Origin: a bacterium
GTDB lineage: Bacteria; Zhuqueibacterota; Zhuqueibacteria; Zhuqueibacterales; Geothermadaptataceae
Length of the DNA stretch: 64,000 nucleotides
Assembly: GCA_024275575.1 (NCBI GenBank)
Contig: JAJRYV010000069.1
Location: forward strand, 1-64,000
Direction: 5' to 3'
Shown here piece after piece: positions 8,872 through 43,074 of the stretch (its first letter is position 1; each line of letters begins with the position of its first letter). The notes under the pieces were generated by a model that was not told where the DNA came from, did not search any database, and saw nothing but the letters and a program-made list of their open reading frames with translations. A program made the position numbers and the translations under genes.

Positions 8872-9386
8872 CTTTTTTCCTCAATTTTCATTTCGAGCTC
8901 TTTTTTGCGATCCAGACCCAGCACCTTGTCCTTGGCTAAAAATGCGGCATGCAGATCATCAAGCTGCTGCGCTGAAAGAATGTCGTCGGCAACTTTAAAA
9001 AAATTATCATCTTCCGCTGAAATATGATCACGCAAATCCGACAAATAAAGCGTAAAAAGCTGTTTCAACTCCGGCCATTTTTCACGTTTGATGAGGCTGC
9101 GCAGCTCGCCCAGTTTATCGCGAAATTCGAGATGGTGCTCGGAAAGCGCGGCAACAATGCTTTCAGCGAGCATGGCGTTTTTCTCTGCCACCAGCTTAAA
9201 AAGCGTTTCTTCCTCTTTCTGGTGATGAATCAAATCACCATAATCTTGAAAAAAAGTAACGTACCAATCGAGTTGATCAGCATAATCGCTTAAATTCGTG
9301 GCTGCAAGAATTTTTAAAACCTGCTTTCGGGCTTGCAGGATCACCCGGTGTTCATCGAATAGAATCTGGTTGGCAGCAGAATACAT
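8868..9386 (-). CDS. Hemerythrin-like HHE domain protein
   Basis: 172 residues, all helical, with the diiron ligand pattern of bacterial hemerythrins: DEHR near the N-terminus, IHHQKEEETLF, ALSEHHLEF and DHISAEDDNFF. Such proteins bind O2 or NO or act in iron repair. It is the first gene of a two-gene unit with the SDR. Together with the rubrerythrin fusion at 24928 it suggests oxygen protection in an anaerobe that depends on oxygen-sensitive benzoyl-CoA reductase; that link is inference. Confidence 0.8.
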   Translation of the reverse strand: MYSAANQILFDEHRVILQARKQVLKILAATNLSDYADQLDWYVTFFQDYGDLIHHQKEEETLFKLVAEKNAMLAESIVAALSEHHLEFRDKLGELRSLIKREKWPELKQLFTLYLSDLRDHISAEDDNFFKVADDILSAQQLDDLHAAFLAKDKVLGLDRKKELEMKIEEKR

Positions 9387-11534: not shown

Positions 11535-11549
11535 TTGGCGGAAATAAAA

Positions 11550-12770
11550 ATGGCCTATAAAATCAAATCGACATCTGTGCTGAAAGAGCTGATGCGCGAC
11601 TATTTTCAACGCATCGGGCAGCGAGAAAAACCGCTTGCATGGTGCACCAGCGTCGGCCCGGCCGAGCTTTTGCGCAGTTTCGGCTTCGAGGTTTATTTCC
11701 CGGAAAACCACGGCGCCCTGCTCGGCGCAACACGCACTGCCGGGTCCAATATCCCCGCTGCGATGAAATGCGGATATTCAGGAGATATCTGCTCCTACAC
11801 CACAAGCGATATCGGCGCTTTTCTCAACCAATCAACACCGCTGAAAACGCAGTACGGCCTCGACGGTATTCCCCGCCCTGATTTGCTGGTCTACAATACC
11901 AACCAGTGTCGTGAAGTGGAAGACTGGTTTCATTTTTACGCCGATCGTTTTAATTGCTCAATCGCCGGTATTCATCCGCCGCGTCATTTGCACAGCATCC
12001 GTGCGGCGGAAATTGAACTCGTGACCGCACAGTTCAAAAGGATTCTCCCGTTGTGTGAACAGATCAGTGGACAAAAATTCGATTTGGACGCCTTTCGCGA
12101 GGTTTTGCAACTGAGCAGCGAAGCCACCCTTTTATGGCAGCAGGTCTTACGCACAGCCATGGCAAGTCCGGCGCCCCTGAGTTTTTTTGACGGCACCATC
12201 CACATGGGGCCGATCGTCGTCTTGCGCGGAACGGTTGAGGCGAAAACGTATTACGCAGAATTATTGCAGGAACTGCAGGAAAATATCGCTGCCGGCAGGG
12301 GATTTCTGCAGCAGGAAAGCTGCCGATTATTCTGGGAAGGCATGCCGATCTGGGGCAAACTGCGCGCGCTCTCCGATTTATTCGTGCAAAATGATGCCGC
12401 CGTGGTTGCCTCAACGTATTGCAATAGCTGGATTTTTGACGCTTTTAACGAAAAAGAACCGTTTGAATCAAGCGCACGCGCTTATACGGAAATTTTCATC
12501 AACCGCAGCGAACAGGCCAAATTCACCATGCTACAAAAGTGGATCGAGGATTATCGCATCGATGGCGTCATTTTTCACGATGCCAAAACCTGTTTCAATA
12601 ATTCCAACGCCCGCTTCGGCATGCCGCTGCGCTTGAAAAACAAACTCGGTATTCCCAGCATCACCATCGACGGTGATTTGTGCGATCTGCGATTTTACTC
12701 CGAAGGGCAATCGATCACCAAAATCGAAACGTTTATCGAACAGATCCAAAACCAAAAATCATTTATCTAA
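11550..12770 (+). CDS. Lone 2-hydroxyacyl-CoA dehydratase/benzoyl-CoA reductase-type subunit (HgdB/BcrB family)
   Basis: 406 residues from ATG 11550, chosen over an in-frame TTG at 11535 because GGCGGA precedes the ATG at a proper distance. The family fold is shown by WCTSVGPAELLRSFG at 31-45, CGYSGDICSY at 74-83 and NTNQC ending at Cys120. Near the C-terminus it has AKTCFNN and then GIPSITIDGDLCD. The cysteines are candidate [4Fe-4S] ligands. Family members form heterodimers that take low-potential electrons from an ATP-driven activator and reduce or dehydrate a thioester. No partner subunit adjoins it, although an activator follows at 13806. It might pair with BzdN or BzdO from 41.8-44.3 kb, form a homodimer, or act on another thioester. 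Family certain, substrate unknown. Confidence 0.8.
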   Translation: MAYKIKSTSVLKELMRDYFQRIGQREKPLAWCTSVGPAELLRSFGFEVYFPENHGALLGATRTAGSNIPAAMKCGYSGDICSYTTSDIGAFLNQSTPLKTQYGLDGIPRPDLLVYNTNQCREVEDWFHFYADRFNCSIAGIHPPRHLHSIRAAEIELVTAQFKRILPLCEQISGQKFDLDAFREVLQLSSEATLLWQQVLRTAMASPAPLSFFDGTIHMGPIVVLRGTVEAKTYYAELLQELQENIAAGRGFLQQESCRLFWEGMPIWGKLRALSDLFVQNDAAVVASTYCNSWIFDAFNEKEPFESSARAYTEIFINRSEQAKFTMLQKWIEDYRIDGVIFHDAKTCFNNSNARFGMPLRLKNKLGIPSITIDGDLCDLRFYSEGQSITKIETFIEQIQNQKSFI

Positions 12771-12782
12771 CCGGGGTAAATC

Positions 12783-13748
12783 ATGAAACGAACACAAAAA
12801 AAGGTTGCCGTTGTCGGTTTAGGGCCGGTCGGCAGTATTCTCGCGGTTCATTTAAAACTGAGCGGACTCAAAACAGCATTATGTGATATCGATTTGCCCA
12901 AACTGCAGGCGATCAGAAACGGCGGTATCAGCCTGCAGGGCAGCATCGAAAAATCATCGGCTTTTGATTTTATTTTTTCCACATTTGATGAACTACAGGC
13001 TTTCGAACCGGAGATCGTGTTTTTTGCGGTGAAAGCCCATCAAATGCCGCGCGTTCTCGAAGATGCCGCACAGTTAAACAATGAAAATATTACCGTCGTC
13101 AGCGCGCAAAACGGCATCGATGTGGAAGAGTATTTATTCGATACTTTCGGTGAAAATAAAACCCTGCGCATGGTGATCAACTACGCAGGTGGTTTACTCG
13201 AAGCGAACCGGGTCAATATTGCTTTTTTTAATCCGCCGAATTATATCGCTTCCATCGATGACAGCCATACGGAAATGGCAGAGCTTGTTGCCGGCAAGCT
13301 CAACCACGCCGGGCTGGCGACAAAAGCCGTCACCTCTTTCGAGATCATCAAACGGGCATGGGAAAAAACGATTCTCAACGCCGCTCTGAGCCCGCTCTGC
13401 GGCATTGCAAAATTCACCATGAAAGAGGCGATGGAATCGCGCAATACGCTGGACCTCGTCGAAGAAATCATTCTCGAATCGGTGCAGGTCGCAGCGCAGG
13501 AAAAAATCTTTTTCGAAGATGAGTTTGTGCGAAAATGTCTGCGCTATCTGAAAAAAGGCGGACACCATTTTCCTTCCCTTGCGCTCGATTTGATCAACAA
13601 ACACGATACCGAAATCGATTTTATGAATGGTAAAATTGTTGAATACGGCAAAAAGCATTATGTGCGTACACCGGTGAATCTCGCTTTTACCAACATGGTG
13701 CGCGCCATTTCGCGGCATAATCTGGAAAAGGCAAAAAGCGAAAATTGA
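12783..13748 (+). CDS. Ketopantoate reductase-like (PanE/ApbA family) oxidoreductase
   Basis: 321 residues with the Rossmann motif GLGPVG at 12-17 and the family's AVKAHQ and NGID segments. It also has the catalytic Lys and Asn in WEKTILNAALSPL. The family reduces 2-oxoacids, with ketopantoate as the classic substrate, using NAD(P)H; relatives act on other 2-oxoacids. It lies 12 bases after the lone dehydratase subunit and ahead of its activator. That suggests it may supply or consume a 2-hydroxyacyl intermediate for that module rather than make pantothenate; this is inference, as no other pan gene is present. Confidence 0.75.
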   Translation: MKRTQKKVAVVGLGPVGSILAVHLKLSGLKTALCDIDLPKLQAIRNGGISLQGSIEKSSAFDFIFSTFDELQAFEPEIVFFAVKAHQMPRVLEDAAQLNNENITVVSAQNGIDVEEYLFDTFGENKTLRMVINYAGGLLEANRVNIAFFNPPNYIASIDDSHTEMAELVAGKLNHAGLATKAVTSFEIIKRAWEKTILNAALSPLCGIAKFTMKEAMESRNTLDLVEEIILESVQVAAQEKIFFEDEFVRKCLRYLKKGGHHFPSLALDLINKHDTEIDFMNGKIVEYGKKHYVRTPVNLAFTNMVRAISRHNLEKAKSEN

Positions 13749-13805
13749 TACGATCGAAACCGCTACCTGACAAATGCTTTCGCACCCATTGACCGGACAT
13801 TCAAT

Positions 13806-14609
13806 TTGAAAATTGAAAAGCACAAAACAAGTTCGCCACATTTCCTCGGCGTCGATCTCGGTTCGGCCTTTACCAAGTTCACCGTCTGCGACGCCGGGGG
13901 CAAGATCGTGCATCAGAATTTAATAAAAACATTAAACATCAGAAGCCGGTCACTTAAAGACAGTGTTGAGCGCATCTATGGACAGTTTAGCATTAAATCA
14001 TGTTGTGCAACCGGTTATGGCCGATCGAAATTTGAACCGGCGCAAATCATCAAAACCGAGATAAACTGCGCTGCCGAAGCCTGTCTCGCGCTGCGCCCCA
14101 AAGAGAAGTGCATCATCGATATCGGCGGCGAGGATATCAAAATCATTCATTGCGATGAGGCCGGAAAGGTCGAGAGTTTTTATTTGAACAGCAAATGCGC
14201 CGCCGGTACCGGCGCCTTTTTATCGGAAATAGCCGAACGTGCCGAAATCGATCTCACGCAGATGAGCGTGTTGGCTGAACAATCGGCTTCGGAAAGGGAG
14301 ATCAACAGTTTTTGCACGGTGTTCGCCAAGACGGAAATCATGGGCTGGTTATTCGACGATGTGCCGCAGCAAGACATCGCCCGCGGTATTTATGCAGCGA
14401 TCATCAACCGCGTGAACAGTCTGCGCATCGATTCGGCCGGGCCGGTTTTTTTAATTGGCGGCGTCGCAGCAAATCATCCGTTTTTTAACAATTTATTGCG
14501 TAAAAGTCTCGGTAAAGAAGTTTTCGTGCCACAGAAGAGCGAATTTATCGTATCTTTTGGCGCCGCTTTGATGGCTAAAAAATATGATGATAAAACGAAA
14601 AGGGATTAA
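13806..14609 (+). CDS. Divergent BadF/BcrA/HgdC-type activating ATPase
   Basis: 267 residues from a TTG start; no ATG is available upstream of the essential first motif. ASKHA-fold motifs are present: [34 protein letters not shown] and FLIGGVAAN. The two cluster-binding Cys positions (KCAAGTG and FCTVFA) are kept. It differs from the two ATPases of the benzoyl-CoA reductase operon: DIGGED replaces DIGGQD and CTVFAKTEI replaces CTVFAESEV. It would hydrolyse ATP to drive one electron into the partner reductase or dehydratase, most simply the lone subunit at 11550. The stop abuts the next start (TAAATG). Confidence 0.8.
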   Translation: MKIEKHKTSSPHFLGVDLGSAFTKFTVCDAGGKIVHQNLIKTLNIRSRSLKDSVERIYGQFSIKSCCATGYGRSKFEPAQIIKTEINCAAEACLALRPKEKCIIDIGGEDIKIIHCDEAGKVESFYLNSKCAAGTGAFLSEIAERAEIDLTQMSVLAEQSASEREINSFCTVFAKTEIMGWLFDDVPQQDIARGIYAAIINRVNSLRIDSAGPVFLIGGVAANHPFFNNLLRKSLGKEVFVPQKSEFIVSFGAALMAKKYDDKTKRD

Positions 14610-15863
14610 ATGAAAGTTTATCAAAAAAGAGAAAAAGGTATCGGTGCGCTATACGATGAGGTCTATCTCGTCGATGGCGCCCGCACGGCTTTCGGCAAAC
14701 TTTGCGGCACACTGGCGCAAGTTTCGCCGACCGACCTCGGTATTTTTGCCTCCCGCGCCGCATTGAACAATGCCGGCATCTCCGGCGATGAAATGGATCA
14801 GGCCATCATCGCAAACATCGGCCAGGCTTCTACAGACGCTTATTTTTTACCACGGCACATCGCACTTTACGCCGGTCTGCCGATGTCTGTGCCGACGCTC
14901 ATGGTGCAGCGTATTTGCGCCTCCGGCATGGAAACGATGATCACAGCGACGGAACAAATCACCCTGGGGAAAGCCCGTTCGGTGCTCTGTTGCGGCACTG
15001 AAAATATGTCGCTTTCACCAACTGTAAGTTTTGGAAATCGACTGGGTTACGCCCTGGGGCGACTCAATTTTAAAGACATGCTGTGGGAGGCGTTGAACGA
15101 CACTGCGGCCGGTTACCCCATGGGACTCACAGCGGAGAATCTGGCAAAAAAACACCACATCAGCCGGGAAAAATGCGATCTTTTTGCCAAACGTTCGCAA
15201 GAACTGGCGCAGGCTGCAAGTGAAAACGGTTATTTTAGTGGTGAAATCACACCGTTAAATTCAACAATTTTCGAAGCCGTGGGCCTGAAACCGCGCAAAG
15301 TGCGGCTCCCGCGCGGCATGACCGATTTCACCTGCGATGAAAACATCCGCCCGACAGACCAGGAATCGATGGCCAAATTACCGCCGGTTTTTGCCAAAGA
15401 CGGCGTGCAAACAGCGGCAAATTCCAGCGGCATCGTCGATGGGGCCGCCGCTGTTGTCATCGCTCACAAATCGGTCGTCGAAGCGAAAAACCTGAAGCCG
15501 CTCAGTCGCATTGTCGCCTCGGCCTCCTGTGGTGTCGATCCCCAATACATGGGCATTGGGCCGGTGCCGGCTATCGAAATCTTGTTGGAGATGACCGGAC
15601 TTTCACTCGCTGAAATCGATCTGATCGAAATCAACGAGGCTTTTGCCGCCCAATGCATCGCCTGCGAAATGGAACTCGGGCTTGAACGCGACAAACTGAA
15701 CGTGCACGGCGGTTCAATCGCTCTGGGACATCCACTTGCCGCGACCGGCACCCGGCTTTCTTTAACGATTTCACGGGCGCTGAAAGAACGCAATGCGAAA
15801 TACGGCATCGTTTCCGCCTGTGTCGGCGGCGGCCAGGGCACGGCGATTTTGCTGGAAAATTGA
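14610..15863 (+). CDS. Thiolase (acetyl-CoA acyltransferase family)
   Basis: 417 residues. The nucleophile Cys103 sits in RICASGMET, the active-site His374 in GHPLAATG and the second Cys404 in CVGGGQG, so it should be catalytically complete. An unusual N-terminal extension of about 17 residues precedes the normal first strand (VYLVDGARTAFG). Thiolases cleave 3-oxoacyl-CoA to acetyl-CoA and a shortened acyl-CoA. Here it could act on 3-oxopimeloyl-CoA after ring opening or belong to the upstream dehydratase-type module. A second thiolase, of the PcaF type, lies at 45526. Confidence 0.85.
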   Translation: MKVYQKREKGIGALYDEVYLVDGARTAFGKLCGTLAQVSPTDLGIFASRAALNNAGISGDEMDQAIIANIGQASTDAYFLPRHIALYAGLPMSVPTLMVQRICASGMETMITATEQITLGKARSVLCCGTENMSLSPTVSFGNRLGYALGRLNFKDMLWEALNDTAAGYPMGLTAENLAKKHHISREKCDLFAKRSQELAQAASENGYFSGEITPLNSTIFEAVGLKPRKVRLPRGMTDFTCDENIRPTDQESMAKLPPVFAKDGVQTAANSSGIVDGAAAVVIAHKSVVEAKNLKPLSRIVASASCGVDPQYMGIGPVPAIEILLEMTGLSLAEIDLIEINEAFAAQCIACEMELGLERDKLNVHGGSIALGHPLAATGTRLSLTISRALKERNAKYGIVSACVGGGQGTAILLEN

Positions 15864-15956
15864 AAGTCTGAAACAGCAGTATTTTTTAACCTTAAAATAA
15901 TGGTAACTGTTCAGCCGACACAATTTCTGAAAATAGAGTGAGAATGAACATAAACA

Positions 15957-17045
15957 ATGAACCCAAACCCCCAAAAGCCTATGAAAATACCTAAAAAAAT
16001 CCATGCCTGGCAAATGGTAGAATTAGATAAACCATTTCAATTGATCGAAAAAAAAATCCCCGAGCTTGAACCGGGTGAAGTACTGGTGGAAGTCGCCGGT
16101 TGCGGTGTCTGTCACACCGATATCAGCTTTTGGCATTTTGGCGTCAAAACACGTTTGGCGCCACCATTGACGCTGGGCCACGAAATCAGCGGACGCGTTA
16201 TCGCCGGCGACCCATCGTGGCTCGGCCGGGCCGTCATCGTGCCGGCTGTTTTGCCCTGTGGCGAATGCGAATTTTGCCGAAATGGGCGGAGCAATGTTTG
16301 CCGCAGCCAGTTGATGCCCGGCAACGATTTCGACGGCGGATTCGCCTCGCACGTTATCGTACCGGGCCGTTTTCTATGTTCGGTTCCAGAAGTTGTGTTG
16401 AGTCATTTTCAACTCGAGCAGCTCGCGGTCATCGCCGATGCTGTCTCAACGCCGTATCAGGTTGTGGAAAAATCCGAACTCAAAGAAGGTGATTTCGTCA
16501 TTACCATCGGTGCGGGGGGCATCGGAAACTATGGTGCACAATTGGCCAAAATCAAAGGTGGATGTGTGCTTGCTCTCGATATCGATCAGAGTAAATTGGA
16601 CATGGTTAAAAAATCCGGGATCGATGCCGTGCTCAATATCGACGGGCTGGAAATGCGCGAGGTCAAAGAAAAAGTAAAGACAATCGCTAACGAGCTTGGC
16701 GCCCCGCGTTTTCGCTGGAAAATTTTCGAAATGTCCGGAACCAAAGCCGGACAGGAGCTGGCTTTCAACTTGCTCAATTTTGCCAGCACATTGTCAATCG
16801 TCGGCTTCACCATGGATAAACTGGAAGTTCGTCTGAGCAATCTGATGGCCTACGACGCGAAAATGATCGGCACCTGGGGCTGTCGCGCCGAGCTCTATCC
16901 GGAAATCGTCGACCTGGTCGGCGAAGGCAAAATCAAGATCAAACCGTACATTGAAACTTTCCCGATGGCTGAAATCAATGATATTTTCCAAAAAACGTTG
17001 CAACATAAATTCAAACGCCGATCGATTCTCATCGCAGATTTTTAA
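15957..17045 (+). CDS. had: 6-hydroxycyclohex-1-ene-1-carbonyl-CoA dehydrogenase
   Basis: 362 residues, a zinc alcohol dehydrogenase. Catalytic zinc ligands lie in GCGVCHTD and LGHEISG. The structural zinc site is C-x2-C-x2-C-x7-C (CGECEFCRNGRSNVC), and the NAD motif is GAGGIG. The N-terminal half closely resembles known Had enzymes (AGCGVCHTDISFW, PLTLGHEISG). The enzyme oxidises 6-hydroxycyclohexenoyl-CoA to the 6-oxo compound with NAD+, the second step after dearomatisation. It is followed by oah and dch, the expected pathway neighbours. A second possible ATG is at 15981. Confidence 0.88.
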   Translation: MNPNPQKPMKIPKKIHAWQMVELDKPFQLIEKKIPELEPGEVLVEVAGCGVCHTDISFWHFGVKTRLAPPLTLGHEISGRVIAGDPSWLGRAVIVPAVLPCGECEFCRNGRSNVCRSQLMPGNDFDGGFASHVIVPGRFLCSVPEVVLSHFQLEQLAVIADAVSTPYQVVEKSELKEGDFVITIGAGGIGNYGAQLAKIKGGCVLALDIDQSKLDMVKKSGIDAVLNIDGLEMREVKEKVKTIANELGAPRFRWKIFEMSGTKAGQELAFNLLNFASTLSIVGFTMDKLEVRLSNLMAYDAKMIGTWGCRAELYPEIVDLVGEGKIKIKPYIETFPMAEINDIFQKTLQHKFKRRSILIADF

Positions 17046-17077
17046 AAAGAATAAAAGATGAAAATAAAGAGGGAAAA

Positions 17078-18163
17078 ATGGACACATTAAAAAACCATGA
17101 TTTAGTGGCAACTGATTTTTCCGAAATCCTTTACGAAAAACGCCCCTGTCTCGATAACTCCGGCACACCGGTTGAAGATATCTATAATGCCTGGATTCTG
17201 CTCAACAACCCTGCGCAATATAATTCCTACACCACACAAGCGGTTAAGGAAGTCATTCTGGCCTTCCGCCAGGCATCCAACGACCGTTCGGTAAACGCCA
17301 TCATTTTCAGCGCTGTCGGTGAGAAAGCCTTCTGCACCGGCGGCAATACAAAGGAATACGCCGAATATTACGCCGGTAATCCACAGGAATACAAGCAGTA
17401 CATGCGCCTTTTCAATGACATGGTCTCTTCGATTTTGATGTGCGATAAGCCGGTGATCAACCGCGTCAACGGCATGCGTATCGGCGGCGGGCAGGAAATC
17501 GGCATGGCCTGCGATTTTTCCATTGCCCAGGATCTGGCACGTTTCGGGCAGGCCGGGCCCAAACATGGTTCCGCTCCCGACGGCGGATCAACCGATTTTC
17601 TCCACCTTTTCATCGGCATCGAACGGGCAATGTTTTCCTGCACGGTCTGTGAGCCGTGGAGCGCTCATGAGGCATTCCGCTACGGTTTATTGACGGAAAT
17701 CGTACCGGCGCTGAAAGTCGACGGGAAGTTCGTGCCCAATCCCCTGGTGCACACAGATCGCTGGGTGGATGAATCCGGTAATCTGATTTATGGATTACCA
17801 AAAACCGGGGATGCTTTGGCGGCAGCGAAAAAACTGTTGAAATCCGGTGAAACCGATCTCTCGCTGTTAGATCAGGCGGTAGAAAAATTCGCCACAAAAT
17901 TGCTCTACACTTTCCCCAATTGCCTCAGCAAAACCATCAACTCGTTGCGCAAAAAAAAGCTGGAGCATTGGGATCAAAACAAAGAGAGCAACCGCGACTG
18001 GCTGGCGCTCAACATGATGACGGAAGCCAAAGCCGGGTTCAGGGCATTCAACGAAGGCCCGCGGGACAACCGCGAAGTGGATTTCATCAAACTGCGCCAG
18101 GCGCTGGCCAACGGGCAGCCGTGGAATGATGAATTGTTCAAATCAATTTCGCCGGTGAAATGA
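17078..18163 (+). CDS. oah: 6-oxocyclohex-1-ene-1-carbonyl-CoA hydrolase (ring-opening enzyme)
   Basis: 361 residues of the crotonase superfamily with the distinctive Oah/BamA layout: FCTGGNTKEYAEYYAG, NGMRIGGGQEIGMACDF, then GPKHGSAPDGGSTDF. GAGGG-type ribosome site. The enzyme adds water twice and cleaves the ring C-C bond, giving 3-hydroxypimeloyl-CoA. This gene (bamA) is the accepted marker for anaerobic aromatic degradation and gives the operon its identity. The length is slightly below typical family members. Confidence 0.93.
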   Translation: MDTLKNHDLVATDFSEILYEKRPCLDNSGTPVEDIYNAWILLNNPAQYNSYTTQAVKEVILAFRQASNDRSVNAIIFSAVGEKAFCTGGNTKEYAEYYAGNPQEYKQYMRLFNDMVSSILMCDKPVINRVNGMRIGGGQEIGMACDFSIAQDLARFGQAGPKHGSAPDGGSTDFLHLFIGIERAMFSCTVCEPWSAHEAFRYGLLTEIVPALKVDGKFVPNPLVHTDRWVDESGNLIYGLPKTGDALAAAKKLLKSGETDLSLLDQAVEKFATKLLYTFPNCLSKTINSLRKKKLEHWDQNKESNRDWLALNMMTEAKAGFRAFNEGPRDNREVDFIKLRQALANGQPWNDELFKSISPVK

Positions 18164-18242
18164 AACCGTTGTTGCGAAGCTTCCACCTCCGCAGTGAGGT
18201 GCAGAAAAAGATAACCGGTACAATCAAACGAGGATTGTTTTT

Positions 18243-19016
18243 ATGAAAAAAGTGATCGTCAATTACCACCATTCGGATTCGCTGGCGCAGGTGATTCTCA
18301 ATGCGCCGAAAGCAAACATCCTCGATTCGCAGATGATGCAGGAACTGCTGCAACTATTCGAAGAATTTCACCAGCACCAGGGTCTGAAACTCATCACCAT
18401 CGAAGGCGCCGGGCAGCATTTTTCCTTTGGCGCCAGTGTCGACGAGCACACGCGCGATAAAGCTGCTGGCATGCTGCAAAATTTCCACAAAATATTCTAC
18501 CGCCTGATGGATCTGAATATCCCGACGATTGCCAAAGTGGACGGGATGTGCCTCGGTGGAGGCTGCGAGCTGGCGTTGATGTGCAACATGAATTTCGCCA
18601 CACAATCGGCGAAATTCGGGCAGCCGGAGATTTCACTCGGGGTATTTCCGCCGCCGGCCTCGGTCATTCTGCCGCTGAAAATCGGCCAGGCACGCGCTGA
18701 TGAATTGCTCATTTCGGGAAGAAATATCACGGCGGAACAAGCCTTGACGCTCGGTCTCGTCAATAAAATATTCACAGAATCCGGCGAGATGGAATCCGCA
18801 GTTGACGATTATTTCCAAAAATTTCTGCTGCCGAAGAGTGCGAGCTCACTGAAATTTGCCGTTCGCGCCGCCCGTTCAAATTTTAACACGATCCTGCGCC
18901 AAAATCTTGCGGGGCTGGAAACAATGTATATCGAAGTGCTCATGCAGACGTTTGACGCCAATGAAGGCATCGAATCATTTCTGCAAAAAAGAAAACCGGA
19001 GTGGAAAAATAAATAG
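18243..19016 (+). CDS. dch: Cyclohexa-1,5-diene-1-carbonyl-CoA hydratase
   Basis: 257 residues of the crotonase superfamily. The segments FSFGASVDEH, MCLGGGCELALMCN and FGQPEISLGVFPPPA match the dienoyl-CoA hydratase group, and both crotonase Glu positions (GGGCE and QPEI) are present. It hydrates the benzoyl-CoA reductase product to 6-hydroxycyclohex-1-ene-1-carbonyl-CoA, the substrate of the Had protein encoded two genes upstream. Ribosome site AGGA. It ends with a TAG stop, which matters for judging the amber codon in the ligase. Confidence 0.88.
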   Translation: MKKVIVNYHHSDSLAQVILNAPKANILDSQMMQELLQLFEEFHQHQGLKLITIEGAGQHFSFGASVDEHTRDKAAGMLQNFHKIFYRLMDLNIPTIAKVDGMCLGGGCELALMCNMNFATQSAKFGQPEISLGVFPPPASVILPLKIGQARADELLISGRNITAEQALTLGLVNKIFTESGEMESAVDDYFQKFLLPKSASSLKFAVRAARSNFNTILRQNLAGLETMYIEVLMQTFDANEGIESFLQKRKPEWKNK

Positions 19017-21041: not shown

Positions 21042-23822
21042 ATGAAAGAGCTGCACCTGATTGTCAACGGGCGCGAGCACCGGCTACTCGTCGATGCCGG
21101 AGCGACGCTGGCCAAAGTCCTGCGTGAAAAACTGGGACTCACCGGCACAAAAATCGGCTGTGAACAGGGTTCCTGTGGCGCCTGCACCGTGCTCGCCGAT
21201 GAGCGGCCGGCGCTCAGTTGCCTGACCCCGGCGCCGGCCTGTGACGGCCAAAGTATTACCACGATCGAGGGCGTGGCGCAAGGCCGGGTATTGCATCCGC
21301 TGCAGGAGGAAATGGTCAGGCACGGCGCCATTCAGTGTGGTTTTTGCACCCCCGGCATGGTGATGAGTGCCATCGCTTTTCTCAAAGAAAATGCTCATCC
21401 GACAAAAAATGAAATTCGTGAAGCTATTTCCGGGAATCTCTGCCGCTGTACGGGCTACAAAAAAATAATCGCCGCCATCGAAGCGACTGCCATACGTTTG
21501 CAGGGCAAAACGACGGTTATGCCGGACAAATCCGGAAACAGCATGGTCGGCACCGCACAGCCGCTCATCGATGCCCGCAAAAAAGTTACCGGTAGCGCGA
21601 AATTTGCCGATGATTTGCAGGAAAAAGACAGCCTGCAATGCCGTTTTTTGCGCAGCCCGCACGCCCATGCCCGCATCAAATCCATCGATAAATCAACTGC
21701 TGAAAAAATCGCCGGTGTGCGATATGTTTTAACCGGCGAAGAATTGCCGGAAAAATTCGGCGTACTGCCGATCTCGCAAGACCAAACCGCGCTGGCCATC
21801 GATAAAGTAATCTACATCGGTGAAATCGTCGCGGCGGTAGCAGCCGATTCCATGGAGATTGCAGAAAATGCTGTGCGCGCAATCGAGGTCGAATACGAAT
21901 TGCTCAAACCCTTTTACACCATCGCAGATTCCCTCGAAAAAGTCGGCAAAACAGACGATGCCATTCACCCGCATTGCCGCGAAGGGGCGAATATCCACAA
22001 ACGCGCCAGCCTGCGTTTCGGCGATCAGCAGGCCGGTTTGCAAAAAGCAGCATGCAAAATAGAACGGTCATTCGAATTTTCCGGCGTTACTCATGCATTC
22101 ACCGAACCCCATGCCTGCACCGCTGTCTGCGATGCCGAGGGCAAACTGACTTTAACCACAGCAACTCAGGTACCCCATTACCTGCACCGCGCCGTCGCCA
22201 AAGTTTTGCAGTTACCGCTGGAGGACGTACGCATTATCAAACCCTGCCTCGGCGGTGGTTTTGGCGGCAAGGGTGATCCTTTTGCTCACGAAATTATCGC
22301 CGCACATCTGGCGCGAAAACTGGCGCGTCCGATACGTATTGTGCTCAGCCGTGAGGAGGTTTTTCTCACTAACCACGGCCGCCATCCGACGGAAATGAAG
22401 CTGGCAATCGGCACCGACAGCGAAGGCAAGCTGAGCGTGCTCGACGCTGATATTTATATCGATGGTGGCGCTATCGGTAGTTTTGGCGTCGTGACGACTT
22501 ATTACAACGGCGTGTTGCTGCAGGCGCCCTACAAGATCGACAACATCGGTTTCGATTCCTGCCGCGTTTACACCAACAAACCGCCGTGCGGCGCCATGCG
22601 CGGGCATGGTGCAGTCAACCCGCGTTTTGCCGTCGAGACCGTGCTCGATGAACTGGCGGAAGAATTGGCGATGGACCCGTGTGACTTGCGGCTGAAAAAT
22701 TTTCTGCCGGCAAATTGCCTGACCGTGGGACAGTACCGCATCACCAGCAACGGCAGCCGCGAGGCGTTGACTGCAGTACGGCAGTCTTCAGGCTGGGATC
22801 ATAAATTTAAAAAATTACCTTTTGGCGAGGGCGTTGGCGTCGCCTGCGGTTTTTTCATCAGCGGCAGCGCTTTGCCCATCATCTGGAACAAATATCCGCA
22901 ATCCGTCGTGCATATGAAAATCGATTTCGACGGCCGCGTCGTGATTTATTCCGGCGCCAGCGATATCGGCCAGGGCAGCGACACCATGCTGGCGATGATC
23001 GTCGCCGAGGTGCTGGGCATCCCGTTGAAATCCATCCACGTGCATGCCGCGGATACGCTGTTCACACCGGTCGATCTCGGCAGTTATTCCAGCCGGGTGA
23101 CTTTTATGGCCGGCAATGCAGCGAAAATGGCGGCGGAAAATCTGCGTGCGGATATTCTCGCCGGGGTTGCTGCGGAAACAGGCGAAGCGGTAGAAAGACT
23201 AGATTTACAGCACGGAAAAATCAGCTCAAAAGATGGCAAAATTGCGCTCGACTGGCTCGAAACGATCGCTCACGCCACGGCCAACCGCGGCGCGCTCAAT
23301 GCCACCGGTTACTATATTTCCCCCAAACTCGGCGGCGATTTTAAAGGCGCCGGCGCCGGGCTCAGCCCGAGCTACAGTTTTGGTGCGGTGATCACGCAGG
23401 TGCGCGTCGACTCCATGACGGGTCAGGTGGAAGTGAGCGATATTTGGGGCGCGCATGATCTCGGCAAAGCGATCAATCCGCTGGCCGCCGAGGGGCAACT
23501 CGAAGGTTCGTGGCACATGGGTTTGGGCCAGGCGCTCAGTGAATCCATGCGTTTTGACAACGGCCATATCACCAACGCCAATTTCATCAACTACCGCATT
23601 CCAACATCGCTGGACACACCTGAAATACACACAAAAATCATCGAATCCATCGATCCCGAGGGACCGTTCGGCGCCAAAGAATGCGGCGAGGGCGCGCTGC
23701 ATCCGGTGATTCCGGCAGTGGCCAATGCTATTTACGATGCTGTTGGTGTGCGCATTCGAAAACTGCCCATCTCCCCGGAAGAAATTCTCACCGGCACCGC
23801 GCAAAACGGAGGTGTAAAATGA
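21042..23822 (+). CDS. hcrCA: 4-hydroxybenzoyl-CoA reductase-type protein, fused [2Fe-2S] (gamma) and molybdopterin (alpha) subunits
   Basis: 926 residues. Residues 1-~160 are the two-cluster [2Fe-2S] subunit with all eight Cys (40, 45, 48, 60 and 99, 102, 134, 136). A linker leads to a xanthine-oxidase-family molybdopterin subunit from about 168, ending with GPFGAKECGEG, where Glu883 is the likely catalytic Glu. Characterised 4-hydroxybenzoyl-CoA reductases have these as separate HcrC and HcrA chains. The enzyme removes the phenolic hydroxyl from 4-hydroxybenzoyl-CoA, making benzoyl-CoA. The stop overlaps the start of hcrB (ATGA), fixing the subunit pairing. Another aromatic-CoA or xanthine-type substrate is possible but less likely given HcrB. 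Confidence 0.82.
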   Translation: MKELHLIVNGREHRLLVDAGATLAKVLREKLGLTGTKIGCEQGSCGACTVLADERPALSCLTPAPACDGQSITTIEGVAQGRVLHPLQEEMVRHGAIQCGFCTPGMVMSAIAFLKENAHPTKNEIREAISGNLCRCTGYKKIIAAIEATAIRLQGKTTVMPDKSGNSMVGTAQPLIDARKKVTGSAKFADDLQEKDSLQCRFLRSPHAHARIKSIDKSTAEKIAGVRYVLTGEELPEKFGVLPISQDQTALAIDKVIYIGEIVAAVAADSMEIAENAVRAIEVEYELLKPFYTIADSLEKVGKTDDAIHPHCREGANIHKRASLRFGDQQAGLQKAACKIERSFEFSGVTHAFTEPHACTAVCDAEGKLTLTTATQVPHYLHRAVAKVLQLPLEDVRIIKPCLGGGFGGKGDPFAHEIIAAHLARKLARPIRIVLSREEVFLTNHGRHPTEMKLAIGTDSEGKLSVLDADIYIDGGAIGSFGVVTTYYNGVLLQAPYKIDNIGFDSCRVYTNKPPCGAMRGHGAVNPRFAVETVLDELAEELAMDPCDLRLKNFLPANCLTVGQYRITSNGSREALTAVRQSSGWDHKFKKLPFGEGVGVACGFFISGSALPIIWNKYPQSVVHMKIDFDGRVVIYSGASDIGQGSDTMLAMIVAEVLGIPLKSIHVHAADTLFTPVDLGSYSSRVTFMAGNAAKMAAENLRADILAGVAAETGEAVERLDLQHGKISSKDGKIALDWLETIAHATANRGALNATGYYISPKLGGDFKGAGAGLSPSYSFGAVITQVRVDSMTGQVEVSDIWGAHDLGKAINPLAAEGQLEGSWHMGLGQALSESMRFDNGHITNANFINYRIPTSLDTPEIHTKIIESIDPEGPFGAKECGEGALHPVIPAVANAIYDAVGVRIRKLPISPEEILTGTAQNGGVK

Positions 23823-24757
23823 TCTCCACAGTAAACTATTTTAACGTGAAAACATGCGAAGAAGCAATACAGCTTGCCCACGATCACGCGGATGATTTCT
23901 GCTGGATCGCCGGCGGCACCGATGTGATGCTCAACCGGCAACAGGAAAATAACACCGCGGCATGCTTGATCGATATCGGCGATATTGGCGAATTGCGCGG
24001 CATTGCTGTGCACGACAATAAAATGCGAATTGGTTCCCTGACGACATTGCATGATGTGGGCAAAAATGAATTAATTCTGCAAGGATTTCCCACACTGGCG
24101 CAGGCTGCGAAATCCGTGGCTTCGCCGCTCGTGCGCTATTCCGCGACCATCGGCGGCAATCTGCTGGTGGAAAACCGCTGCATTTCCTATAATCAATCCG
24201 AATTTTGGAAAGAGGCCGTCAATCACTGCATGAAAATCGGCGGCGAAAAATGCCTGGTCACCGGCAGTTTGAAGCATTGTTTTTCACAATTTGTTTCCGA
24301 TACCGCACCGGTTTTGCTCTGCTTGAATGCTGAAGTTCAAATTCTCGACAAAAACGGTAGCCGTATTTTACCACTGCAGGAGATGTATTCCGGTGTGGGA
24401 CTGTCGCCGCGGCGTCTCGACAAGCAGGCGCTTTTAACAGATATTTTTATCCCGATGAGCAAGCCGCACAAAATTTATTTTCGCAAACTCACCCGACGCA
24501 AGGCGGTGGATTTCACATCCCTCACCTGCGCGATATCAGCCGATGAAGCAAAAAACATCACCCTTGCCCTCAGTGGCGTCCATCCCGGGCCTGTGATGCT
24601 GCAGGATATGCTCGATTGCGATGCAGAGACCCTGGTTAAGCGTGCGTTGAAAGCAAGCAAAACAGTGGATAATGATATGTATTCACGGACCTATCGGCGC
24701 AAGATGATCGGGGTTTTTATCCGGGAGGGCTTGCAAATGTTGAAAAAACTGCCTTGA
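23819..24757 (+). CDS. hcrB: 4-hydroxybenzoyl-CoA reductase FAD subunit with extra [4Fe-4S] site
   Basis: 312 residues from ATG 23819 (GGAGGTG ribosome site; ATGA overlap with the gene before). FAD-binding motifs are AGGTDVML and TIGGNLLVENR. Cysteines 121, 137, 145 and 154 have spacing C-x15-C-x7-C-x8-C, the same as the four ligands of the additional [4Fe-4S] cluster of the Thauera HcrB subunit (122, 138, 146, 155 from memory). That insert is absent from ordinary xanthine dehydrogenase FAD subunits. This makes the complex a true 4-hydroxybenzoyl-CoA reductase, which takes low-potential electrons. It is the last gene of the operon before a terminator. Confidence 0.9.
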   Translation: MISTVNYFNVKTCEEAIQLAHDHADDFCWIAGGTDVMLNRQQENNTAACLIDIGDIGELRGIAVHDNKMRIGSLTTLHDVGKNELILQGFPTLAQAAKSVASPLVRYSATIGGNLLVENRCISYNQSEFWKEAVNHCMKIGGEKCLVTGSLKHCFSQFVSDTAPVLLCLNAEVQILDKNGSRILPLQEMYSGVGLSPRRLDKQALLTDIFIPMSKPHKIYFRKLTRRKAVDFTSLTCAISADEAKNITLALSGVHPGPVMLQDMLDCDAETLVKRALKASKTVDNDMYSRTYRRKMIGVFIREGLQMLKKLP

Positions 24758-24808: not shown

Positions 24809-24835
24809 TCCCGGCGAAACCCGGGAGTCTTTTTT
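24809..24835 (+). terminator. Intrinsic terminator after the aromatic operon
   Basis: Stem TCCCGG (24809-24814) and CCGGGA (24821-24826) with loop CGAAAC, then GTC and a run of six T (24830-24835). It lies about 50 bases after the hcrB stop and marks the likely end of the 9.8-24.8 kb transcript. Confidence 0.75.
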
Positions 24836-24853: not shown

Positions 24854-24882
24854 TTGAATTCTTCGTAGATTTCATGTATGTT
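24854..24882 (+). promoter_or_regulatory. Sigma-70-like promoter for the rubrerythrin-reductase fusion
   Basis: TTGAAT (24854-24859), a 17-base spacer and TATGTT (24877-24882). It lies between the upstream terminator and the ATG at 24928, giving a leader of about 40 bases. The position supports independent transcription of the next gene. Confidence 0.5.
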
Positions 24883-24927
24883 GCCCCACGTCAATTTCCC
24901 CGCAAGCTATTGTCACAGGAGAAAATA

Positions 24928-26430
24928 ATGCAATTCAACATCGAAGAAATCCTGCAGATTGCCAAAAAAATAGAAAGCAACGGATACAGATTTTACACCG
25001 CAGCGGCGGAAGCAAACGAAGCCAACCGGGACTGGCTAAGCAAACTTGCTCAGGAAGAAATCGGGCACGAAAACATCATCGATGATTTTGCCCGCTCCCT
25101 CGTCAGCCCGGCGGACAGCCCGGATGATCCTGATAACCTTGTCTTGCTCTATCTCAATTCCATCGCCGATAGTCTCGTTTTCAGCGCCAGTGCTGACCCG
25201 CGTACATTTTTTGATCAGGAAGTCAGCATCGATGACATCATCGATGATGGATTACGCCGCGAACACGAGGCCGTTGCTTATTATTCTGCCCTGCAAAATG
25301 CAATGCAGGATGAGGCGGCAAAAGCACAGGTCGGGCTTCTGATCAATGAAGAAATCAGCCACATTGCCTGGTTGCGACGAAAACAGGAAGAATTGAATAA
25401 TAAAAGAAAAGCCCGCGGCAAAGACCGGATTTATGATCTCATCATCATCGGCGCCGGACCGGGTGGAATCAGCATGGCTGCCGAGGTAATCCACGCCGGC
25501 ATGGATAGCGAAAATATTCTCATTCTTGAAGGCGCCCCACGCACCTCGTGGATGATTCATTCTCTTTATCACGAACAACACCGCGTGGTCGCCGATTACA
25601 AAGGCGCCTCACCCGTGACTTACGGCATCATGAAGATGCGCAATATGACGAAAGCGAGCACCTTAAAAATGCTCGCCGATACGCTACAGGAATACGACAT
25701 TAAAGTTCTGTACGACTGCCCGATTCTCAGTATTGAGAAAAAAAAAGGTATCTTTCATTTTCAGGGAAAAGAGCACAGCTATAAAGCTCGTTTCGGGGTT
25801 ATTTCCATCGGTGTTTTCAATCGCCCCAACCACCCGGATTATCCCATTCCGGCAAGTCTCTCTGAAAAAATCTATTATGAAATCAGCTCAAACAAAATCG
25901 AAGACGCCGGCGTTCTCGTCGTCGGTGGCGGTGATACTGCGGCCGAATTCGTGCAATCCCTGCTTAATAGTGGCAACCGCGTCACCCTTTCCTGCCGCGA
26001 AGCCGACCTTTCCGCAATGGGCGATGAAAATCGTCAGGCGATCAAAGCGGCTGAAGCGAGGCAGCCATTGACCGTTTTTGCCGGCAGCGATATCCGGAAA
26101 ATTGTGCCGCATAGCAAAGGCATTCAGGTTCTGTTTCATGATGAAAGCCGCAGCGAATTGCTTGTCGATAATATTTTTTATGCCCTCGGCGGCAATACAC
26201 CGCTGCAAATCCTGAAAATTTCCGGCATTGAAATGAAAGATGGAAAACCGGTTTTAACCAAGGCAAATGAAAGCAATATTACCGGGCTTTATCTCACTGG
26301 CGATCTCGCAGCGCGAGATGAAATCGGCGCCATCAGTACCGCTTTTAATTCATCCTATGCAGCGGCTTCTCATCTTTTGCAAAAATATTTTCCGGAGATC
26401 GCTGCACAACAGGCAAAATCCAGAAGCTAA
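24928..26430 (+). CDS. Rubrerythrin-like diiron domain fused to a thioredoxin-reductase-like flavoprotein
   Basis: 500 residues from ATG 24928 (AGGAG upstream); a longer in-frame reading from 24754 has no coding character. Residues 1-150 form a ferritin-like four-helix domain with Glu16, E44xxH47, a Glu near 112-114 and E142xxH145, a complete diiron set. From about 168 a two-dinucleotide-binding flavoprotein follows (IIGAGPGG, then VVGGGDTAAEF, TGDLAARDE). No CxxC disulfide is present, as in YpdA-type reductases. A single chain could therefore pass NAD(P)H electrons through FAD to a diiron peroxidase. It sits just after the aromatic operon, where the reductases are oxygen-sensitive. No rubredoxin domain is present. 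Activity is inferred. Confidence 0.8.
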   Translation: MQFNIEEILQIAKKIESNGYRFYTAAAEANEANRDWLSKLAQEEIGHENIIDDFARSLVSPADSPDDPDNLVLLYLNSIADSLVFSASADPRTFFDQEVSIDDIIDDGLRREHEAVAYYSALQNAMQDEAAKAQVGLLINEEISHIAWLRRKQEELNNKRKARGKDRIYDLIIIGAGPGGISMAAEVIHAGMDSENILILEGAPRTSWMIHSLYHEQHRVVADYKGASPVTYGIMKMRNMTKASTLKMLADTLQEYDIKVLYDCPILSIEKKKGIFHFQGKEHSYKARFGVISIGVFNRPNHPDYPIPASLSEKIYYEISSNKIEDAGVLVVGGGDTAAEFVQSLLNSGNRVTLSCREADLSAMGDENRQAIKAAEARQPLTVFAGSDIRKIVPHSKGIQVLFHDESRSELLVDNIFYALGGNTPLQILKISGIEMKDGKPVLTKANESNITGLYLTGDLAARDEIGAISTAFNSSYAAASHLLQKYFPEIAAQQAKSRS

Positions 26431-26566: not shown

Positions 26567-26656
26567 ATCGTCTCGCTAAGTTGCAAAGACGCAGAGTTTC
26601 GTTTTTAAATATGTTATACTATTTTTCTCTGTGCCACTGCATCTCCGCGAGAATAA
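26567..26656. repeat. Imperfect inverted repeat, copy 1 of a dispersed element
   Basis: Left half TTGCAAAGACGCAGAG near 26581-26596 faces a right half reading CTCTGTGCC...CTCCGCGAGAA up to about 26656. The sequence resembles the 44854-44950 element. Both lie in spacers next to gene starts. Confidence 0.4.
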
Positions 26657-26666
26657 TAAAGGCCAG

Positions 26667-27737
26667 ATGCGTAGAGAAAATTTCTATATTTCTGATTTAC
26701 TTCCTTTCCTTTGTTTGATCCTGTTCAATGGTTGTGTCACCGATACCGGCGATCGCTTCACCACCGATCGCGTTGATCCGCTGTTCCGAAGCTATCAGGG
26801 TGAAGCAGCGCCCGGTGCAGCGCTGCGTATCATCAAAAATGGTGAAGTGACGCTGACAAAAACCTACGGCATGGCCAATCTTGAGATGAATATTGCGGTA
26901 AAAAGCCGGACGAATTTTCGCCTGGCCTCGGTCACCAAACAATTTACAGCCATGTGCATCATGTTATTGGTCGAACGCGGCAGCATGAAACTCACCGATA
27001 CCTTGCGAGATATTTTTCCTGAATTTCCGGACTATGGCCGAAAAATCACCATCCGCCATCTTTTGCAACATCAATCCGGGCTCGTCGCGTATGAAGACCT
27101 GATCACAGAAAATACGACGGAGCAGGTGCGTGATGCCGATATTTTAAAAATGATGATGGCACATGACAGCACTTATTTTCAACCGGGTACGGATTATCGT
27201 TACAGCAATTCCGGTTATGCGGTGCTGGCGATGGTGGTGGAGAAAATTTCGGGGAAATCATTTGCTGCGTATTTGCAGAAAAATATTTTCACCCCGCTGG
27301 GCATGCATAACACAGTGGCATTCGAAAAAGGTATTTCGTCTGTTTTCGACCGCGCCTTCGGCTATACCGTGGACGCGGATACGATATTCTTCAGCGATCA
27401 AAGTCTGACCAGCGCTGTGCTCGGTGACGGCGGCATCTACTCGTCCATCGATGATTTGAGCAAATGGGATCAGGCGTTATACGGTAAAAATCTGGTCTCG
27501 CGGGAAATGCTGCAGCAGGCTTTCACTCCGGGACTGCACGGTTATGGTTTTGGCTGGCGCATCGATGAATATCGCGGCCACAGAAGGGTGGCCCACACCG
27601 GTAGCACACGCGGTTTTCGCACCATCATCCAGCGCTTTCCACAGGACGAGTTTACCGTCATCATCCTGACAAACCGTAACGGGCCGGGCGTCGCTGATTT
27701 GGCTGAAAAATTGACGGATATTTTTTTACTCGAATGA
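26667..27737 (+). CDS. Serine beta-lactamase-like lipoprotein (class C/DD-peptidase family)
   Basis: 356 residues from ATG 26667; a GTG at 26631 would add 12 residues before the signal peptide and is less likely. The lipobox is LFNGC. Family motifs are S-x-x-K in LASVTKQFTAM, the Tyr motif in YRYSNSGYAVL, and the third motif replaced by VAHTGSTRGF. These proteins act as esterases, D-amino peptidases or beta-lactamases in the cell envelope; the substrate cannot be read. It is convergent with the ATPase gene that ends 10 bases away. Confidence 0.8.
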   Translation: MRRENFYISDLLPFLCLILFNGCVTDTGDRFTTDRVDPLFRSYQGEAAPGAALRIIKNGEVTLTKTYGMANLEMNIAVKSRTNFRLASVTKQFTAMCIMLLVERGSMKLTDTLRDIFPEFPDYGRKITIRHLLQHQSGLVAYEDLITENTTEQVRDADILKMMMAHDSTYFQPGTDYRYSNSGYAVLAMVVEKISGKSFAAYLQKNIFTPLGMHNTVAFEKGISSVFDRAFGYTVDADTIFFSDQSLTSAVLGDGGIYSSIDDLSKWDQALYGKNLVSREMLQQAFTPGLHGYGFGWRIDEYRGHRRVAHTGSTRGFRTIIQRFPQDEFTVIILTNRNGPGVADLAEKLTDIFLLE

Positions 27738-40125: not shown

Positions 40126-40941
40126 TCAAGCTGTCACCAGCTTTTCTGCCGCCAGTTTTTGCAAACGCACATGCCCGAGGATAGCGCAGCCCAACGCTGC
40201 GATGAATTGCGGCATGTCATTTTCAGGTACGTTAACTCCTGAACCGAGAATTTCCCGCACGCCCTGCGTCATTTTTTCCCAGCGCAAAATACCGCCGACC
40301 AGAGTGAATTCCGGCTCCGCTTTAATGCGTTTCAACAATTGTGTAGAGCGGTTGGTCAACGACATGATAGCGCCATACATGATATCTTCCGGCGGCACTC
40401 CCTCAGACAAATGGCTGATCACCTCCGACTCCGCGAAAACTGCACAGACGCCGGAAATGGGCACGGCTGCTTTCGACAGATTGAGCAGGTTGCCGATATC
40501 TTTGGTTTCGTAATTCATGTAACGCACCGTTTTTTCGAGGAATGCGCCGGTGCCCGCAGCACACTTGTCGTTGAGGCGAAAGGTGACGACACGGGCTTTT
40601 TCATCGATTCGACTGGCTTTCATCGTCTGACCGCCGATATCCAGCACCGTGCGCGTGCCGGGAAACAGAAACAGAGCGCCGTGCGCCGTCGCGGTTAAAT
40701 CGGTGATCTGCAAATCGCGGAACGGCACCTGATGACGGCCGTAACCAGTGGTGATCGTATAACTGATATCCGCCATTTTAAAACCGGCTTTTTCCAGCAC
40801 CTCGTCAGTTATTTTTTGCGTAACATGATTCAGGCGTGAACCGGTCGGCTGCATCACCCGGGTGATGATATTGTATTTGTCATCAACGATAAGCGCTTTT
40901 GTGTAGGTGGAACCCACATCGAGGCCGAGTGTATATTTCAT
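40126..40941 (-). CDS. bzdQ: Benzoyl-CoA reductase ATPase subunit (BcrD/BzdQ-like)
   Basis: 271 residues, ASKHA-type activator: [53 protein letters not shown] and VGGI. The cluster Cys positions are kept. It overlaps the preceding ATPase gene by 4 bases (ATGA). It and its partner hydrolyse ATP to lower electron potential for ring reduction by the BcrB/C-type pair. Its equal length with the partner ATPase fits the Azoarcus Bzd type better than the Thauera Bcr type, where one ATPase is much longer. Assignment of Q versus P is by gene order. Confidence 0.8.
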
Positions 40942-41753
40942 CTTCTTTCCTCCGCTGCAACAGGTTGGCGGCTCGCCAGAACATGATCGAGGGCGAACAG
41001 CGCCGCGCCGATGGCACCCATAAAATGGGAATTTTCACCGACATTGACTTTGCGGTCGAGCCCTTCTTCCAATGATTTCACCATGCCTATATTTTTTGCC
41101 ACACCGCCGGTAAAAGTGACTTCATCAAACACACCTACACGCCGTAACAGCCCGATGGAACGGGAGGCGATCGACTGATGCACGCCGCGTAAAATGTCCT
41201 CGACTTTTTTGCCTTTACCAAGCCAGGCCAACACTTCGGATTCGGCGAAAACCGTACAGGTTGTGCTGATGCGAATAGGTTTGGTGGCCAGTAGAGCCGT
41301 GGGGCCAAGTTCGTCTAACGGGATATCGAGGGCAACCGCGGCTGCGCCGAGAAACCGGCCGGTGCCGGCCGCACATTTATCATTCATGCAAAAATCGAGA
41401 ATCTCGCCTTTTTCATTGACTTTGATCGCTTTGCTATCCTGCCCGCCCATATCGATCACCGTACGGGTATTGGGGAACATGTGCACCGCGCCACGGCCGT
41501 GGCAACTGATTTCCGTCACCTGGCGGTTGCCGAAAGTCACTTTGTAGCGCCCGTACCCGGTGCCGATGACATATTCCACAAAACGCGGATCGATATCGGC
41601 ATTTTCCAGAGCAATTTCATAAGCTCTTTCGGCGGCGGCGATAACATTGGCACCCGTATCGATGAGGGACTTGCCGATAATCTCTTTTTTTTCGTTGATG
41701 AGGACTGCTTTGGTTTGCGTCGATCCAACATCGACGCCTGCTGTGTAAGCCAT
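40938..41753 (-). CDS. bzdP: Benzoyl-CoA reductase ATPase subunit (BcrA/BzdP-like)
   Basis: 271 residues. Motifs are [52 protein letters not shown] and FTGGVAKN. The sequence is very close in style to activators of 2-hydroxyacyl-CoA dehydratases (HgdC). The two Cys (KCAAGTG, TCTVFAE) would bind the [4Fe-4S] cluster at the dimer interface. GGAG ribosome site; 19 bases after bzdO. It could partner the lone subunit at 11550 as well as BzdN/O. The P/Q naming follows order and could be swapped. Confidence 0.8.
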
Positions 41754-41772
41754 GATTTCTCCTGCCTTTTTA

Positions 41773-43074
41773 TTAAACCCGGCCTGCCGTTTGCTTTTTG
41801 CTGGTCATGCCTTCAAAAAACGCATCGACGCGATTTTTCATTTGCGCCTCGGACACAACCCGCTTGTCCATCAAATCCGATTCGAAAAACAGCGTTGAAA
41901 TATCCACATTTTCGATCACATGACGGCGACCATCCGCCAGCCCCGTCGAAACCGTGCGGCAACTTTTAATGGGATGATAAACCACGCCATCCAAATGAAA
42001 AGGTTCCACCGATTGCATGACGATTCTGTGCTGATGGAACATGCTGTCCATGGCGTCGCGAACACTGATGAGCAGACCTTCAGCCAAACTTTCCAAAGGA
42101 TCATGGACATCGTACTGAAAACCGACATTGGTGCCTCCCGAGGCGAACCATAAGTAAGTCGAGCTGACAAAAACACCGTTCCAGTCGGTAAAAAACTCAT
42201 TAAAGCGGCGGAAAATAGGATAACAGGGCACACCGACAAAAAAGAGGCGGAACTGCTCATCAGTTACCGTGCCGATACCGTTCGCTACTTTGTATTCCAT
42301 CTCCTGCACCAGCTCCTGAAAATAACGGGCGCCGGCTTCAGCACCGCGGAAACCGTTAGCGACACCGAGAAATATAGTGCCGTCTGTTAGCGCGTTGTAG
42401 ACCGCTGGTTTACAGGTGTTGAGCTCGAGTAGCCGTTTCCAGTTGGCACTCATGGTGTTGGCGTGGGTCAAAGTCTCGCGAAACTTGTCGATATCAAATT
42501 TTTGCCCACTGATCTTTTCACACACTGTGATGAGTTCTTTGAGCTGCGCCACGATATATTTTTTATCATTTTCAAAATCGATGTGCCCCTGCCAGGTTTG
42601 TGTTCCATCAGCACGTGTGCCGGGAATATCGATGGTGAATACCGGGCAATCATGAATACGCTCCCAGATTTCCGCCCACTTTAAATAGGTATTGCAAGCG
42701 TTGGTCAAAACCGCGATCTTTGGTTTGGGAATGCGCCCCATCGGATGTTTGCCACGATTGAGCTGCACTGCAACATCCGCTTTCACATAACCGCAAATAT
42801 CGGGAGAATAACCGTAATCTTCCGCTTCGCTGAGCAATTCACCAGCCACCCGTCTGACGGCTGTCTGCAACGAATTGATCTCCGGGAAAACCACAGGGAA
42901 ATCAAATGTTTTGAGAATTTCATTAATGCTGCCCATGACGAAAACATAAGCTGCACCTTTGCCTTCCTCGGCCGTTGCCGTCAATTCCTGAAACCACTGC
43001 CGAAATAGATTGGCGCCGTCGCGGTTTCCCCGTCCGACGATCTCCTGATTTATCGCATTATTTTTCTCTTTCAT
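41773..43074 (-). CDS. bzdO: Benzoyl-CoA reductase catalytic subunit (BcrB/BzdO-like)
   Basis: 433 residues of the HgdB/BcrB fold. Candidate cluster and active-site Cys lie in [22 protein letters not shown] and [11 protein letters not shown]. The family heterodimer binds benzoyl-CoA and [4Fe-4S] clusters and performs two-electron ring reduction to the cyclohexadienoyl-CoA. It starts 11 bases after the bzdN stop and is followed by the two ATPase genes. The N-O-P-Q order matches known bzd/bcr operons. The product feeds the dch-encoded hydratase in the other operon. Confidence 0.85.

Follow-up and report, generated by a model that had tools for sequence, protein, structure and literature searches.

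Diiron proteins and their electron donors

Rubrerythrin peroxidases normally depend on separate electron carriers. A rubredoxin-less example is ferriperoxin (Fpx) of Hydrogenobacter thermophilus, a diiron protein which is reduced by NADPH and FNR and reoxidised by H2O2, and the assay mixture as listed contains no ferredoxin or other carrier (PMC3317640). Both H2O2 and organic hydroperoxides serve as Fpx substrates (PMC3317640). Single chains that include their own source of electrons have also been described. HydR of Clostridium perfringens is a chimera of [FeFe] hydrogenase and rubrerythrin which couples H2 to the reduction of H2O2 (PMC11926857), and single-chain NADH:O2 diiron oxidases are known among the flavodiiron proteins (FDPs), namely those of class F (PMC6033852) and Trichomonas FDPF3 (PMC9364112). 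On the flavoprotein side, FqrB uses NADPH and is described as having an affinity for both quinones and flavodoxin (PMC10746189).

Where nature has joined a rubredoxin-less diiron domain to an FNR-like reductase, one purified protein would show whether flavin can drive such a site directly, and would also provide a compact NAD(P)H peroxidase. Here we describe a gene encoding both parts, located in a 64,000 nucleotide stretch of bacterial DNA (contig JAJRYV010000069.1, positions 1 to 64,000; hereafter the window).

The fusion gene and its homologue

The fusion gene occupies positions 24928..26430 of the plus strand, as do all features of the gene given below, and encodes a protein of 500 amino acids for which a full-length homologue is known. 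Both the start codon (ATG, 24928) and the RBS read from the sequence 5' of it (AGGAG, 24917..24921) are kept in this homologue. The diiron domain is N-terminal and the flavoprotein C-terminal: residues 1-153 (24928..25386) are assigned to a rubredoxin-less ferritin-like diiron domain by Pfam, profile and ligand alignment, and residues 168-490 (25429..26397) to a TrxR/FNR-like flavoprotein module without CxxC or the YpdA cysteine by Pfam, NCBIfam and structure-profile matches. Between them is a variable 14-residue linker (residues 154-167, 25387..25428), which has 36% identity between the two fusions. The only cysteines in the protein are C264 and C356, and it therefore has neither a CxxC nor a rubredoxin.

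The first-pass annotation of this DNA had proposed that a diiron domain with a full ligand set and a flavin reductase with two dinucleotide-binding motifs are joined in one chain, with no rubredoxin and no redox disulfide. This description stands in every part; the domain search which it called for finds both PF02915 and PF13738 by Pfam in the 500-residue ORF, and the ligands, motifs and cysteines are as proposed. AlphaFold, run with a two-sequence input, gave a pLDDT of 41 for the full length and 53 for the N-domain, which is too weak for a distance between FAD and the diiron site to be read. A Foldseek search with the N-domain model (pLDDT 53) listed many ferritin-like proteins, none of them significant.

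The same fusion is present from end to end, at 61% identity and with its domain order unchanged, in the independent assembly QQUE01000009.1 (L004/L020; genome G069, from Calditrichota like the window), which rules out a chance or assembly chimera. When the two genes are compared over the whole fusion, dN is 0.30 and dS is near saturation. Constraint is stronger on the diiron domain (78% identity, dN 0.13) than on the flavin module (55% identity, dN 0.37). Judged from these substitution rates, purifying selection is acting on both domains, which argues for a working two-domain enzyme; as a second genome has a 61%-identical copy in which both parts are so constrained, the fusion is real.

Queries with the full-length protein or a profile covered approximately 690 genomes (G000 to G685), 82 of them from the same phylum, and the fusion is present in only two. 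The genome sample is thin per species, so that more fusions are possible elsewhere. A larger genome collection was searched directly by exact short patterns, which are sensitive to close relatives only, and across the phyla of the other genomes searched no additional fusions were found. There was likewise no fusion in the plasmid and phage collections, where similarity to the flavin module was only 21-27%, nor in the viral contig scans, which returned only ferredoxin-fused flavoproteins and one unrelated flavoprotein. Literature searches, limited to open-licence papers, found no described protein with this layout, in agreement with the first-pass annotation, to which no characterised protein of this order was known. 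The joining of a diiron domain to a flavin reductase thus appears to be rare, and undescribed in the open literature searched, while its component parts are of known kinds.

The N-terminal diiron domain

Pfam places Rubrerythrin (PF02915) at the N-terminus, with 28.8 bits for the domain alone against a cut-off of 22.8. Six metal ligands were located by alignment with relatives, E16 (codon at 24973), E44xxH47 (25057 and 25066), E112 (25261) and E142xxH145 (25351 and 25360), and are invariant in 33 of the 33 aligned sequences. The set is therefore of the six-ligand type (four Glu and two His). Classical rubrerythrin has a seventh ligand, a Glu three residues past the helix-C Glu; as far as motif reading can place it, this position is A115 in the fusion and an S/T/A column in the family. 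Rubrerythrin sensu stricto is thus matched in the E, ExxH, E, ExxH ligands, and not in the rubredoxin FeCys4 centre or the seventh Glu.

The nearest structure is TM1526 (PDB 1VJX), to which the profile of the N-domain family gives a full-domain match (3.7e-27). Full-domain similarity and the six ligands agree with the TM1526 type, and the standalone single-domain form of that type is absent here. On its sequence, the N-domain is a member of a widespread rubredoxin-less ferritin-like family: 63 of the 388 genomes sampled have a relative (the two fusions counted in), and nearly all of these proteins are 155-190 amino acids long, with the standalone ones at approximately 165. The ligand set itself also fits ferroxidases, bacterioferritins and diiron oxygenases.

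A possible unfused counterpart of the fusion was noted in another genome (L045), where a diiron gene without rubredoxin (1492-1959) precedes a CxxC-containing TrxR-type gene (2020-2931) by 60 bp.

The C-terminal flavin module

Pyr_redox_3 (PF13738) spans residues 172-458 in the Pfam search (3.7e-33). The FAD-binding motif GAGPGG (175-180; 25450..25467) and the NAD(P)-binding motif GGGDTA (333-338; 25924..25941) were both identified by motif and alignment. The nearest solved structures by profile are YpdA (7A7B) and TrxR-like FNR (3AB1, 6GAS, 3LZW). As judged by sequence, the module shares the TrxR fold, the FAD and NAD(P) motifs and the lack of CxxC with enzymes of the TrxR-like FNR/FqrB type, but not their basic 2'-phosphate (NADPH) motif. 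After GGGDTA the two fusions read CREADLSA and CREKNFEM, whereas the aligned standalone relatives have YRRxxFxR or similar, and of the three basic residues in the NADPH motif of these relatives, two are missing from each fusion. This degeneracy hints at a preference for NADH.

Several flavoprotein identities were considered and rejected. A YpdA/bacillithiol disulfide reductase is ruled out by G179, which stands at the position of the GxGPCG cysteine, and the module scores 62 bits against the YpdA family TIGR04018, whose cut-off is 340. Thioredoxin reductase is ruled out as there is no CxxC in the NAD(P) domain, and a flavodiiron protein because the Pfam scan gave neither a metallo-beta-lactamase core nor a flavodoxin domain.

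The closest relatives of the module are standalone CxxC-less proteins of about 320-340 amino acids, which occur in 30 of the 247 genomes of one Spirochaetota-like phylum and in two Campylobacterota-like genomes (affiliation read from gene content). Their identity to the module is 37-38% (L014, L015) or 30-31% (L017, L018), and they have in common with it the motif GxGPxG, a Y..K.V...YKG block and RPN.P.Y. The flavin module belongs with these FNR-like reductases, a clade of standalone proteins. FqrB of Helicobacter and Campylobacter is presumably a characterised member of the clade, and the L017 and L018 proteins may be FqrB.

The genome from which the window derives also encodes a ferredoxin-fused, circularly permuted TrxR-like flavoprotein (L002, 1489-2793), in which the C-terminal FAD segment (compare P0001 434-462) is placed ahead of the remaining module. 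This permuted form also occurs at L019 4441-5772 and on contigs L067-L071, classed as viral in IMG/VR.

Genomic context and the benzoyl-CoA pathway

The window carries an anaerobic benzoyl-CoA pathway, as identified with Pfam and NCBIfam. The class I benzoyl-CoA reductase genes (40126-44267) encode two BadF/BcrA-type ATPases and two HGD-D subunits. Downstream enzymes of the pathway are located at 11535-19016, and two additional genes in this stretch encode an HGD-D protein on its own (11535) and an activase (13806). A 4-hydroxybenzoyl-CoA reductase-like gene (21042-23822) has its 2Fe-2S (gamma) and molybdenum (alpha) subunits in one chain, and is followed by a beta-like FAD subunit (23813-24757). 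Close to the start of the pathway cluster there is a hemerythrin HHE-domain protein on the minus strand (8868-9386).

It had been suggested in the first-pass annotation that the fusion protects the benzoyl-CoA reductase; this did not survive closer inspection, as transcription unit, synteny and gene co-occurrence all speak against a specific link. A terminator-like hairpin, TCCCGG-CGAAAC-CCGGGA followed by GTCTTTTTTC (24809..24826, a pattern match only), lies between the pathway genes and the fusion gene. It is followed by a promoter-like sequence, TTGAAT-N17-TATGTT (24854..24882), also a pattern match, which is conserved in the homologue as TTGAAA-N17-TAAAAT with 10 of the 12 positions in agreement. 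Regional counts of terminator- and promoter-like patterns are within the shuffle range, and it is therefore the conservation that bears the weight of the case for a separate unit. Taken together, the hairpin and the conserved promoter-like sequence suggest that the fusion gene is a transcription unit of its own.

Upstream of the fusion, G069 has a MATE-like transporter and genes of the aspartate pathway, which differ from the neighbours in the window. This genome, which is 98% complete, lacks the pathway marker TIGR03200, whereas five further genomes from the order show the converse, with the marker present and the fusion absent. A tie between the fusion and the adjoining benzoate genes is therefore not supported, and this locus illustrates that a position close to an oxygen-sensitive pathway is in itself no evidence of a role there. 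The sole neighbour common to both genomes is a serine beta-lactamase-fold lipoprotein-like gene downstream (26631-27737 in the window, 9546-10667 in L004). No oxidative-stress gene is found beside the fusion.

Proposed function and alternatives

On the strength of the protein's motifs and of the analogy with Fpx, our best model, to which we give an even chance, is that of a self-sufficient hydroperoxide reductase which would work in the cytosol at the expense of NAD(P)H; the first-pass annotation had likewise named a self-sufficient NAD(P)H peroxidase as a possibility. Electrons from NADH (or NADPH) would enter at the FAD of the FNR-like C-terminal module, and FADH2 would then hand them on singly and directly to the N-terminal diiron site, either within one chain or across to a dimer partner. 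The diferrous site would in turn reduce H2O2 to water, or an organic hydroperoxide to the alcohol. Direct transfer from FAD to diiron is proposed because the fusion lacks a disulfide, a rubredoxin and a ferredoxin; as the chain shows no further redox motif, the electrons would go only from NAD(P)H to FAD to diiron, unless an outside carrier intervenes. The cofactor content, electron path, substrate and NADH preference are those which we infer for the fusion, and one protein may here do the job of two or three in relatives. More tentatively, and with somewhat less than an even chance of being right, FAD would directly reduce a rubrerythrin-type diiron site in a single-chain NADH peroxidase, a minimal detoxifier with an apparently single origin in one Calditrichota genus.

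The same electron path could end in O2 being reduced to water, as in the flavodiiron NADH oxidases. The single-chain oxidases noted above provide a precedent, and a reduced flavin close to diiron is able to react with O2; we nevertheless regard this as unlikely, although it is the foremost of the alternatives, as the diiron fold is of the rubrerythrin type and not the metallo-beta-lactamase fold of FDPs, and Fpx, the nearest characterised functional analogue, is a peroxidase. Ranked after it, and also improbable, is the possibility that two separately working modules, an FqrB-like quinone or flavodoxin reductase and a diiron peroxidase fed by another carrier, were fused for co-expression. That each part is also found standalone, at 320-340 and approximately 165 amino acids, and that the linker is short and variable would fit this, but the order is kept across 61% identity and the domains are without any other electron-carrier motif.

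A role in iron handling, in which the ferritin-like domain would oxidise or bind iron and the flavin module would reduce ferric iron for release or loading, has a lower probability again. The ligands are those of ferritin and bacterioferritin, NAD(P)H flavoproteins do reduce ferric iron, and there are weak NCBIfam matches to the iron exporter MbfA and to encapsulin-associated ferritin. These matches, however, are far under their cut-offs and cover half the domain, the full-domain match goes to TM1526-like proteins, and no transporter, encapsulin or storage-ferritin gene is located beside the fusion. Very unlikely, in our view, is an oxygenase function, in which a self-sufficient diiron enzyme would attack an organic substrate and might be tied to aromatic metabolism. 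The Glu/His pattern of the fusion is shared with aldehyde-deformylating oxygenase and others (weak profile matches), and in its own genome the gene adjoins those of aromatic degradation; but the aromatic pathway in the window is an anaerobic one, the gene is apparently a separate unit which does not co-occur with the pathway, G069 has the fusion and, as judged by the marker, no aromatic pathway, and the closest relatives are rubrerythrin-type.

Comparison with known systems

The peroxidase reading can be set against each of the described systems. The TM1526 type (1VJX) is alignable over the whole N-domain and has the same six ligands, but is a standalone protein of approximately 165 amino acids. 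The TrxR-like FNR and YpdA/Bdr structures (3AB1, 6GAS, 3LZW, 7A7B) share with the fusion the fold, the FAD and NAD(P) motifs and the absence of CxxC, whereas the fusion has G179 in place of the YpdA cysteine, has partly lost the NADPH-type basic residues and carries a fused diiron domain. The standalone Spirochaetota-like and Campylobacterota-like flavoproteins (L014, L017, L018, L073-L090), unlike the fusion, have no diiron domain.

HydR is a tested precedent for the fusion of a rubrerythrin to the enzyme that supplies its electrons (PMC11926857); these electrons, however, come from H2 via hydrogenase, and HydR has FeS clusters and rubredoxin centres. Class F FDPs (PMC6033852) and Trichomonas FDPF3 (PMC9364112) resemble the fusion in carrying electrons from NADH to diiron within a single chain through an FAD reductase module, but differ from it in their metallo-beta-lactamase diiron core, their FMN flavodoxin and rubredoxin domains and their reduction of O2. 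Fpx with its NADPH:ferredoxin oxidoreductase has, by published description, the same combination of a rubredoxin-less rubrerythrin-type diiron protein and an FNR-type flavoprotein. That system consists of two proteins, whereas the fusion is one chain with a degenerate NADPH basic motif and would, by analogy, be in effect the NADPH-FNR-ferriperoxin system in a single polypeptide.
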